Positions 1 to 6,316 of a stretch of 64,000 nucleotides of DNA are shown here, piece by piece (the stretch's first letter is position 1; every line of letters starts with the position of its first letter). Source of the stretch: Paracoccaceae bacterium (lineage in GTDB: Bacteria > Pseudomonadota > Alphaproteobacteria > Rhodobacterales > Rhodobacteraceae); contig JASJAU010000006.1 of assembly GCA_030066855.1 (NCBI GenBank), positions 1-64,000 of the forward strand, in the 5' to 3' direction. The notes beneath the pieces are model-generated. The model was not told the origin of the DNA, did no database searches, and saw nothing but the letters and a program-made list of their open reading frames with translations. Position numbers and translations under genes: made by a program.

Positions 1-116
1 ACCGGATAGGCCGTGTAGAGGTGCTTTTCCATGCCGTCGGCCACCGCACGGAGAGTCGGGCGCGGGGTGGCGCGAAGCGCGTCGATTTCGGCCTGTTGCT
101 CGGGCGTCAGCGGCAT
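1..116 (-). CDS. N-terminal fragment of an unidentified protein (MPLTPEQQAEIDALRATPRPTLRAVADGMEKHLYTAYPV...), truncated by window edge
   Basis: Reverse-strand open frame from ATG (CAT at 114-116) to the window edge; upstream GGGACACAA. Confidence 0.5.
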   Translation of the reverse strand, partial: MPLTPEQQAEIDALRATPRPTLRAVADGMEKHLYTAYP

Positions 117-267
117 GTTGTGTCCCTTTTTCTTATGAGTCGCCGACATACTGTATCTATGGGCAGCCCCCGGTGGAACCACAATATGCGCTAATCCTCA
201 GGGAGAGGCGTTGCCAAGACGGGACACTCCGGCGGGATGCAGCGCGCCAGAGTTGACGGCGATTGAC

Positions 268-276
268 TTATCCACA
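268..276 (+). promoter_or_regulatory. Perfect DnaA-box-like 9-mer TTATCCACA
   Basis: Exact match to TTATNCACA, upstream of the lipoprotein start; a single copy. Confidence 0.35.
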
Positions 277-324
277 GGGATGCGCAGGATTTCCGCAAAC
301 AACTTTGCAAGGGCAGTGGATCAG

Positions 325-1335
<1,011 letters not shown>

Positions 1336-1340
1336 GATTG

Positions 1341-2738
1341 ATGCCTTCGCGCCAAATCGATAGAAGCCGTCCCATGCGGGCGGCTTCTTTTTTTTTCGCA
1401 GCGGCAGTGTTTCTGGCAAGCAGCGTCGCGATCGCGCAGGCTCCGGACCGGGGCGTTTCGCTGTCTCTTGCCGAGGCGCGCGTCGTGGCGCGCCAGGCGC
1501 TGAACAGCGGGAACACTCCGGTTGCCGACGCGATTTCACGGGCGCTTCTTCAGCGCGACCCCGACGACGCCGAAATGCTCCTGTTTCGGGCCGTCATCTC
1601 CCAAAGGCAGGGCGATCTCGACGCGGCGGAAGATTTCGCCCGGCGCGCTCACGGCGCGGCCGAGGCGCCGAATTTGCGCTTTGACGCCGCGTTCATCGTC
1701 GCTGACGCTCTGGCGCGCCGCGAGGCGTTCACGCGGTCGCAGCTCTGGCTGCGCCGGGCCGATCAGGCGGCTCAAAACGACCGCCAGCGGCAACTAATCG
1801 AGAACCGCTACCGCGCCGTCACGCGCGCCAACCCGCTGTCCGTGCAGCTCCGGTTCAGCGCGCGCCCGTCCAACAACGTGAACAATGGCGCGGAATCCGT
1901 TGTTGTGGACATTGGCGGCCTGCCCTTCCGGCTGGACGACTCCGGACAGCAGCTTGGCGGTTACGAGGCCTCGGCCGGCGCGTCGCTTTCCTACCGCGTG
2001 TCCGAGAACGAAACCCAAAAGACCGAGGTGCTGGGCGAGCTGTTTGGCCGCAAGACCTGGCTGAACTCGGACGCCAAGGAGGCGGCGCCGGATGCGGAAG
2101 GGTCAGATTTCGACTACGCGGTCATCATCGCGGGCCTCCGGCACCAGCGGCTGATCTGGCCTGATGTCGGGCCCTCAGCATTCACCGGCCTCGCCGGGCA
2201 GAGCTGGTACGGCGGACAGGAGCTCGCGCGGTGGGGCGAGCTGCGTTTCGACCAATCCTTCGCGCGGGACGACAGCTCGGTTTATCGGCTGGGCCTGCGC
2301 GTCAGGACCGAAGACCGCCAGGACGACAGCATCAACGACTCCGAGGCGCTTTCCGTGTCTGTCGACTACATTCAGCGGACCGAAGACGGCGGCAGTTTCG
2401 GGTTCGGCGCCACGCTCAAGAAGGTCTGGTCCGACGCGGCCACGGTCGATCAGCATTCGGCCGCCATTCGCGCCAACCGCAACTTCGCGCGGATCGGCGC
2501 GTTCGAGCCGCGCGTGCGGGCCTCCATCGAAGGCCGCATATACGACAAGTTCACTTCCGTCGTCGACGGGCGGGAAGACATCGCGGCCTCCCTCAGTATC
2601 TCGACGTCTTTCCCGGACGTGACCTATTACGGCTTCTCTCCCGAGGTCAGCCTTCAGGCCAGACGCACCTGGTCGAACGTCGATATCTACGACAGGAACG
2701 AGCTCTCCTTGGGCCTGACGGCGGTCTCACGGTTCTGA
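1341..2738 (+). CDS. TPR plus outer-membrane beta-barrel protein, surface lipoprotein assembly modifier (Slam/T11SS, DUF560)-like
   Basis: N-terminal signal peptide (MRAASFFFAAAVFLASSVAIAQA from alternative start 1374), TPR-like helices, then barrel beginning LRFSARPSNNVNNGAES and ending in a C-terminal aromatic (SRF). Confidence 0.75.
   Translation: MPSRQIDRSRPMRAASFFFAAAVFLASSVAIAQAPDRGVSLSLAEARVVARQALNSGNTPVADAISRALLQRDPDDAEMLLFRAVISQRQGDLDAAEDFARRAHGAAEAPNLRFDAAFIVADALARREAFTRSQLWLRRADQAAQNDRQRQLIENRYRAVTRANPLSVQLRFSARPSNNVNNGAESVVVDIGGLPFRLDDSGQQLGGYEASAGASLSYRVSENETQKTEVLGELFGRKTWLNSDAKEAAPDAEGSDFDYAVIIAGLRHQRLIWPDVGPSAFTGLAGQSWYGGQELARWGELRFDQSFARDDSSVYRLGLRVRTEDRQDDSINDSEALSVSVDYIQRTEDGGSFGFGATLKKVWSDAATVDQHSAAIRANRNFARIGAFEPRVRASIEGRIYDKFTSVVDGREDIAASLSISTSFPDVTYYGFSPEVSLQARRTWSNVDIYDRNELSLGLTAVSRF
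1362..1396 (+). terminator. Intrinsic-terminator-like hairpin overlapping the start of the downstream CDS
   Basis: AGAAGCCG-T-CCC / ATGC loop / GGG-CGGCTTCT followed by T8; loop ATG (1374) is in frame with the downstream CDS. Confidence 0.75.
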
Positions 2739-2841
2739 TCGGGGCCGGCGCGTCCTGTCCGACGCTCTCGCCAAATCCCCGCGCCCGCCCTATCCTTGGA
2801 AAAAGGGCCGCGATGCGGCCAGCGCGGAAAAGGAACATCGC

Positions 2842-3276
2842 ATGGGCATTGAATACCTCCACACCATGGTTCGGGTCGCCGATCTGGACAAATCCATCGC
2901 CTTCTACGAGCTGCTTGGCCTGAAGGAACGGCGGCGGCACGAGAGTGAGAACGGCAGATTCACGCTGGTCTTCATGAGCCCGCCGGATCAGACAGACGGC
3001 GGCGCCGATGTCGAGCTGACTTACAATTGGGACGGCGACGAGGGCCTGCCTTCAGACAGCCGCCATTTCGGCCACCTCGCCTATCGCGTCGACAATATTT
3101 ACGAGCTTTGCCAGCACCTTATGGACAACGGGGTGACGATTAACCGGCCGCCGCGCGACGGCCATATGGCCTTCGTCCGCTCGCCCGACAACGTCTCGGT
3201 CGAGCTGTTGCAGCGGGGTGACAACCTGCCGCCGCAGGAACCGTGGGCCAGCATGGGAAATACCGGGCACTGGTGA
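2842..3276 (+). CDS. gloA: Lactoylglutathione lyase (glyoxalase I)
   Basis: HTMVRVADLDKSIAFYELLGLKERRR..., GlxI/VOC fold. Confidence 0.9.
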   Translation: MGIEYLHTMVRVADLDKSIAFYELLGLKERRRHESENGRFTLVFMSPPDQTDGGADVELTYNWDGDEGLPSDSRHFGHLAYRVDNIYELCQHLMDNGVTINRPPRDGHMAFVRSPDNVSVELLQRGDNLPPQEPWASMGNTGHW

Positions 3277-3321
3277 GAGGACTTGCCGCCCGGATCGCCG
3301 GGCCGTCCCGGCGCCCGCCGC

Positions 3322-3819
3322 TTAGTAGATGTAGCGAATCTGGTCGCCCCAGTACCGCTCAATCCGGCCAAGGGCGCTGTTCAGTTCCATGATCCTGGCG
3401 CCGCCGATCAAGGTGTCGCCCTCCAGTCCAGCGGAATGCCGCTGGAACAGCTCATCGACGACCTGCCTGACCTCGCGACCCTTGTCGGTCAGGCGAACGC
3501 GTACCGAGCGGCGGTCGATCTCGCACCGCTGGTGGTGCATGTAACCCATCTCGACCAGCTTCTTGAGGTTGTACGAGACGTTCGAGCCCTGATAATAGCC
3601 GCGCGTCTTCAGCTCGCCCGCCGTCACCTCGTTATCGCCGATGTTGAACAATAGAAGCGCCTGAACCGCGTTGATCTCCAGCATGCCCAGACGCTCAAAC
3701 TCATCCTTGATGACGTCCAGAAGCAATCTGTGGAGCCGCTCCACCATCCCGAGACTGTCGAGATAGTCTTTGAGAAATGGCCGCTCACCGGCCTCCGGCA
3801 CGGATTGATGGATGCTCAT
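3322..3819 (-). CDS. ldtR: MarR-family winged-helix transcriptional regulator, LdtR-like
   Basis: GYYQGSNVSYNLKKLVEMGYMHHQRCEIDRRSVRVRLTDKG wHTH and wing. Confidence 0.8.
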   Translation of the reverse strand: MSIHQSVPEAGERPFLKDYLDSLGMVERLHRLLLDVIKDEFERLGMLEINAVQALLLFNIGDNEVTAGELKTRGYYQGSNVSYNLKKLVEMGYMHHQRCEIDRRSVRVRLTDKGREVRQVVDELFQRHSAGLEGDTLIGGARIMELNSALGRIERYWGDQIRYIY

Positions 3820-3897
3820 CCGGGTCGTCCCTTGCTGCTCTTCAGGCCCGGGTTTCGCGCAAATTCGCCAATAATCGGTTAAAGATAGAAAGCGTTT

Positions 3898-4158
3898 TCA
3901 GGACGCTTCCGCATGGGCGCGGAGGCGGTCGATCATCGGCCGGAAACGGTCGGGCGCGGCCTCGCGACCGCTGACCCAGCCGTAGAGATCCTGGTCGTTC
4001 TCGGACAGGAGTGCTTCGTAGAGATCGAGCGCTTCAGCATCCAGGTCCGCGATCCGCGCGTCGCAGAAAGGGCCGAGAATCATGTCCATCTCGCGCGTGC
4101 CGCGCCGCCAGGAGCGGATCCTGAGCCGTTTCAGCCGCGTCTCGTGATCCTCGCTCAT
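3898..4158 (-). CDS. sdhE: Succinate dehydrogenase flavinylation factor SdhE (DUF339)
   Basis: RRGTREMDMILGPF...YEALLSENDQDLYGWVSG motif. Confidence 0.9.
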   Translation of the reverse strand: MSEDHETRLKRLRIRSWRRGTREMDMILGPFCDARIADLDAEALDLYEALLSENDQDLYGWVSGREAAPDRFRPMIDRLRAHAEAS

Positions 4159-4553
4159 GCCGCCTGATCTGAGATCGCCGATTTCAGGCGCTTCTCTAGG
4201 ACGCCCATCCGATCCGCCGCTTGATTCATCTGCGTCCTCAGAAGCCGCATCTCGGCCATCAGCTCCCGGATCTCGACGCCATCCTGTGGCGCGTCCGGCG
4301 CGTCCAGCCCGTCGCCCTCGCCGGTCAGAAGCCAGGGGATCGACACGTTCAGAACGCCGGACAGCATCTGAAGCCGGTTGGCGCGGGGCTCGGACATGTC
4401 ATTCTCCCAGGCCTCGAGCGTCTTGGTCGAGATGCCAAGCTTTTTCGCAAGCGATTTCTGGGACAGCGACTGCGCCTCGCGGGCGCCGGCAATGCGGTCT
4501 CCGAAGGTGGCCGCGTCGTTCGAGTACCAGTTGATGTCAACCGTGTCGGTCAT
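4155..4553 (-). CDS. XRE-family helix-turn-helix regulator
   Basis: GDRIAGAREAQSLSQKSLAKKLGISTKTLEAWENDMSEPRANRLQMLSGVL HTH; start at MTDTVDIN (the ORF track extends further upstream). Confidence 0.85.
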   Translation of the reverse strand: MTDTVDINWYSNDAATFGDRIAGAREAQSLSQKSLAKKLGISTKTLEAWENDMSEPRANRLQMLSGVLNVSIPWLLTGEGDGLDAPDAPQDGVEIRELMAEMRLLRTQMNQAADRMGVLEKRLKSAISDQAA

Positions 4554-4599
4554 TGGGGCGATCCTGATAGCTTGCAGTCGGAATAGCGTGTTCCTATGA

Positions 4600-6316
<1,717 letters not shown>

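Follow-up and report, generated by a model that had tools for sequence, protein, structure and literature searches.

A probable intrinsic terminator within the signal-peptide codons of a Slam-like gene in a marine cluster-3 type XI secretion locus

Can a single element end transcription of a cargo lipoprotein gene and, at the same time, code for the signal peptide of the outer-membrane protein that probably secretes that lipoprotein? The question is raised by the first few kilobases of the stretch of DNA analyzed here (the window, 64,000 nucleotides), in which a sequence-only reading had pointed out a terminator-like hairpin and a T-run just downstream of a lipoprotein gene. The lipoprotein gene occupies 325..1335 of the forward strand, ends with a TAG at 1333-1335, and codes for the lipobox LAAC and a poly-Gly linker. 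It is followed on the same strand by a gene for a type XI secretion (Slam-like, SlipAM/DUF560) outer-membrane protein, hereafter the secretor (1341..2738), which was recognized from the Pfam SlipAM model and from its orthologues. The syntenic neighbours are, on the upstream side, the 5' end of a divergent gene for a flavin-dependent thymidylate synthase (ThyX; 1..116, reverse strand; peptide MPLTPEQQAEIDALRATPRPTL) and, on the downstream side, a glyoxalase / lactoylglutathione lyase gene (2842..3276, forward strand), which matches Pfam PF00903 and falls under the cutoff of TIGR00068. The same order, ThyX, a cargo lipoprotein, the T11SS OMP and lactoylglutathione lyase, has been published for a marine cluster-3 T11SS locus in Roseobacteraceae/Rhodobacteraceae, and the words terminator and operon are absent from the main text of that report (PMC12282271). 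No plasmid relatives were found.

The profile matches of the two central genes are close to or under the thresholds of the models. The secretor scores 22.0 bits against SlipAM (PF04575), exactly at the curated cutoff of 22, its residues 50-104 score 22.7 bits against TPR_16, under the cutoff of 32.7, and a sequence search returned no PDB homologues for it. The lipoprotein matches the NCBIfam model slam_lipo (NF041636) weakly, with 25.1 bits against a cutoff of 80, and its structure model, with eight C-terminal strands and a mean pLDDT of only 36, is too poor to use. Its orthologues sit upstream of the secretor in relatives, and the neighbouring Slam-like protein is the probable secretion channel of the lipoprotein, surface delivery of this partner being the predicted role of the secretor. 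Just past the lipobox, the lipoprotein also carries a run of about 14 glycines (window 409-450), whose codons are nearly all GGC, GGT or GGA.

Positions 1362-1388 read AGAAGCCGTCC-CATGC-GGGCGGCTTCT, and the hairpin and T-run of the sequence-only reading were both recovered. The 5' arm (1362..1372, forward strand) encodes part of R-S-R-P, the loop CATGC lies at 1373..1377, and the 3' arm (1378..1388) encodes R-A-A-S. A T stands at every position of 1388..1396, giving a U-tract of nine T, eight of them past the stem, which encodes S-F-F-F at the start of the hydrophobic core. Folding with RNAfold gave an 11-bp stem with the pentaloop CAUGC at -18.8 kcal/mol, a stability reached by none of 200 shuffled sequences; an alternative fold with a bulged T and an ATGC tetraloop is nearly isoenergetic (-18.2 kcal/mol, 0.6 less stable). 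Under both folds the loop holds the ATG at 1374, which, as had been claimed, is in frame with the barrel-protein ORF ending at 2738. The codons concerned fall within the signal-peptide coding region of the secretor (MPSRQIDRSRPMRAASFFFAAAVFLASSVAIAQA; 1341..1442, forward strand), called by inspection, with the cleavage site between AQA and P. A dispersed repeat or insertion was rejected as the origin of the element, since a related hairpin pattern was found once in the whole genome, and a riboswitch or other known structured RNA was rejected as well, with no credible Rfam match in window positions 1-6000.

The strength and spacing of the element were compared with those of other hairpins in 394 kb of the same genome. 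Its terminator score (d = 49.7, nT 5.51) ranks fourth among 49 sites with d>=0, on a scale calibrated only by the enrichment of high scores at gene ends in this genome. High scores (d>=20) were reached by 20 sites: 14 at gene 3' ends, 5 that are intergenic, a class that depends on our crude, home-made gene calls for this control, and the window hairpin, the only one to overlap a gene 5' end; no such site was internal to a gene. The distance from the lipoprotein stop to the hairpin is 27 nt, and most other terminators of the genome lie at 22-37 nt. By its anatomy, the hairpin with its U-tract would be the intrinsic terminator of the lipoprotein gene.

We then asked whether this arrangement is kept in relatives. 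Orthologues were collected from the family, and the sole congener of the window genome in the set is the Kangsaoukella pontilimi match. Five orthologues, from K. pontilimi (L002/L022), Boseongicola aestuarii (L023/L051) and the genomes G414 (L052), G354 (L026) and G289 (L027), have 53-57% protein identity and each carry a hairpin at the corresponding site of the signal-peptide region and in an unchanged reading frame, its end lying 75-79 nt ahead of a homologous anchor codon in all six loci. Together with the window they form one group on the protein tree (fork support 83/77; wider clade 100/99). In the alignment of the six hairpins, 96.7% of cells are paired, with lower values in shuffled and slid controls, and five of the ten stem pairs have changed on both sides with pairing retained, more than in either control. 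The hairpin was thus conserved in close relatives and its stem covaries, both of which had been set as checks on the original idea. GCGGC in the 3' arm is invariant and read as Ala-Ala in 6/6 loci, while the T-rich codons that follow are read mostly as Phe, Leu or Ser. Overall, U-richness of the T-tract exceeds the synonymous expectation, but the tracts of Boseongicola (L023) and G414 (L052) are short and their scores marginal (2.5 and 7.9), so termination in these two loci may be weak. In the G289 locus (L027) there is also an in-frame TAA near secretor codon 110 (reverse complement, about 1738-1740), either a broken gene or a sequencing error.

The sequence-only reading had placed the start codon of the secretor in the hairpin loop, at 1374, and had seen AGAAG in the 5' arm as the only SD-like stretch. 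The start-codon claim is probably wrong. In K. pontilimi the loop has its ATG in another frame, and the other four orthologues have no loop ATG (the G354 loop holds an in-frame TTG), whereas ATGs cluster at the lipoprotein stop: of 72 lipoprotein-secretor pairs, 38 have an in-frame ATG at -4 to +8 nt of that stop, while control windows give 2-7. Within the hairpin clade, the ATG overlaps the lipoprotein stop in three loci and lies 2 and 5 nt past it in two others. AGAAG is not the only candidate ribosome-binding stretch either, as GAGGAAG (1318-1324) and AGGA (1334-1337) precede possible starts at 1338 and 1341. The stop/start junction (1334..1343, forward strand) thus comprises AGGA overlapping the stop, TTG at 1338 and ATG at 1341, the favoured start. 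Given the clustering of ATGs, the secretor likely starts at 1341 (or 1338), which would put the whole hairpin within coding sequence. These observations also bear on the idea that the hairpin acts in translation, by sequestering the 1374 start or by slowing early elongation and so aiding signal-peptide targeting. An in-frame AUG in the loop, an SD-like AGAAG within the 5' arm and the stable structure that each of the six loci has in its first codons are in its favour; the loop start, however, is unconserved while starts cluster upstream at the lipoprotein stop, and pure translational control predicts neither a U-tract nor a hairpin that disappears together with the upstream gene, so that we consider it highly improbable.

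Another possibility is that the hairpin is a by-product of coding, the codons of Ala/Arg/Phe-rich signal peptides in a GC-rich genome folding fortuitously; such peptides ordinarily contain AA and FF(F). This was evaluated with a null model in which codons were redrawn synonymously according to the codon usage of each locus. In the six-locus clade, terminator-like sites were observed in 6/6 loci against 0.4 expected, and in 384 control genes of the window genome the null appeared well calibrated, with 2 sites observed and 1.3 expected. When the first 49 codons of the window gene were recoded synonymously, the score of the hairpin was reached in 1 of 3000 trials. Both the null and the control genes, together with the covarying pairs, reject an origin by chance folding, which we regard as barely credible. 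With the window sequence left aside, hairpin stability exceeds what coding demands with a Fisher p of about 6e-10 and U-richness with a p of about 0.011 (7e-4 with the window included), values that are indicative and not fully independent because the six loci are related. In two loci, L002 (p 0.21) and L027 (p 0.56), U-richness of the tract by itself does not exceed the synonymous expectation. As judged from these comparisons, selection appears strong on hairpin stability and weaker on U-richness.

This imbalance is relevant to a post-transcriptional role. In the puf operon of Rhodobacter, an intercistronic hairpin protects the mRNA 3' end after endonucleolytic cleavage, and the stem described here might likewise serve mainly to shield the lipoprotein mRNA at its 3' end once it has been cleaved in this way, with no terminator involved. 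Stem stability being the most strongly selected property and the weak U-tracts of two orthologues favour such a role, but the window copy has nine T right after the stem and a top terminator score, and U-richness overall still lies above the synonymous expectation. A terminator hairpin would also stabilize the 3' end, and the two readings are therefore not exclusive; protection without termination seems improbable to us, and its output is the same, namely more cargo than channel.

If the hairpin is a terminator, it should accompany the gene that it terminates, and this is what was seen in loci that lack the cognate lipoprotein. In G235 (L025) the lipoprotein gene and the hairpin are both missing, and the secretor, with its own strong AGGAGG site, directly follows ThyX (region 1339-1600 of the L025 reverse complement), much as in a cargo-less strain reported previously (PMC12282271). 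The secretor genes of L024 and L029 lie behind a different lipoprotein and show no such hairpin. The ThyX counterpart in L025 matches PF02511. The same type of secretor is paired in L024 and L029 with unrelated-looking lipoproteins, which suggests cargo swapping at the locus.

Beyond the clade, most of the more distant homologues are without the hairpin, which is thus not essential to such loci. Terminator-like sites were nonetheless present in 6/74 other homologues against 0.62 expected (Poisson p about 5e-5). Hairpins of this kind occur in the first codons of the distant homologues L003, L075, L081, L088, L004 and L039; those of L003, L075 and L081 lie at nearly the same position, and repeated evolution is possible. 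Intrinsic terminators may be pre-adapted to encode signal peptides, since GGCGGC-TTTTTT is translated into small or charged residues and then Phe/Leu. A wider proposal, tentative and in our judgement falling somewhat short of probable, is that of a conserved class of dual-coding terminators, each with a 3' arm and U-tract that belong to the cargo gene but are read as the signal peptide of its own channel. This class would have arisen on more than one occasion at marine T11SS loci and would set the cargo:channel ratio, perhaps via ribosome coupling.

For the window itself, we favour, with reasonable though not full confidence, a terminator/attenuator that is both intercistronic and dual-coding and belongs to a type XI secretion locus of marine cluster 3, with termination inferred from sequence. 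The intrinsic terminator of the lipoprotein gene would have been retained among the codons for the secretor signal peptide; read as Ala-Ala-(Ser/Phe/Leu)-Phe/Leu, its 3' arm and U-tract supply the end of the n-region and the beginning of the hydrophobic core. RNA polymerase would mostly halt at the U-tract, yielding abundant monocistronic lipoprotein mRNA, and a minority of read-through would yield bicistronic mRNA, on which ribosomes that finish the lipoprotein could start anew at 1341 (or 1338) and so produce the secretor. The predicted outcome is many cargo molecules per channel, and the hairpin probably limits the channel to small amounts compared with its cargo. Such an arrangement would carry a cost, as terminated transcripts would hold a start codon without a stop, and reinitiating ribosomes would reach the transcript end still translating. 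In E. coli reporter constructs, termination efficiency was about 90% for a terminator about 28 bp past a stop codon, and translation lowered by only about 10% the efficiency of another that lay 30 bp past the AUG of the second ORF (PMC4824070); by this precedent, most transcripts should stop after the lipoprotein and a minority should read through.

Ribosome coupling could add regulation to this scheme, which does not require it. As a special case of the terminator reading, the closeness of the ribosome to RNA polymerase might set termination, and the secretor would then sense translation of its cargo. The coupled stop/start geometry and the finding that ribosomes close to a terminator can block termination in E. 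coli (PMC4824070) speak for such a conditional attenuator. The same E. coli data, however, give near-maximal termination at 27 nt from the stop and little repression of early-ORF terminators, and neither an alternative antiterminator fold, in a non-systematic look, nor an Rfam riboswitch was seen. The ORF upstream of the hairpin is a full lipoprotein gene, to be set beside the leader-peptide type of attenuator. We rate conditional attenuation as unlikely, though worth keeping in view. The earlier suggestion that ribosomes melt the hairpin is possible, and the effect is likely weak so far from the stop and near a start codon (PMC4824070). The underlying dual-coding idea, a terminator-like element between cargo and secretor that codes for part of a signal peptide, emerges strengthened.

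If this reading is true, terminators can also code for protein and be selected in both roles, and the need for the secretor in small amounts relative to its cargo would be a clear reason for this double selection. The locus would offer a natural system for following the fate of ribosomes that reinitiate on transcripts ending inside the next gene (non-stop mRNA), and it suggests a search of other cargo-channel and operon junctions for signal-peptide-coding terminators. Literature searches of partial coverage turned up no account of a signal peptide encoded by a terminator; gene finders and terminator finders tend to treat the two kinds of element as exclusive, so overlaps between them are easily filtered out.

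Among known systems, the nearest natural relatives are intrinsic terminators within operons and intercistronic attenuators, which share with the window a GC-rich stem and a U-tract about 27 nt past a stop codon, between co-directional genes, and a predicted lowering of the downstream gene. Unlike these, the window element lies wholly within the downstream coding sequence, its codons supply a signal peptide, and it shows signs of double selection across a clade. At the E. coli frd terminator / ampC attenuator, one hairpin ends the upstream operon and attenuates the next gene, and that hairpin lies in the untranslated ampC leader rather than in coding sequence. The sharing of one hairpin between the two roles would be the same here, whereas the window hairpin is coding. 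The closest geometry is that of the synthetic W48 construct, with tR2 30 bp past the AUG of the second ORF, which nearly coincides with that of the window; W48, however, is an engineered reporter whose terminator has no protein role, and the non-stop effects on the upstream gene that were seen there are, for the locus described here, a prediction (PMC4824070).
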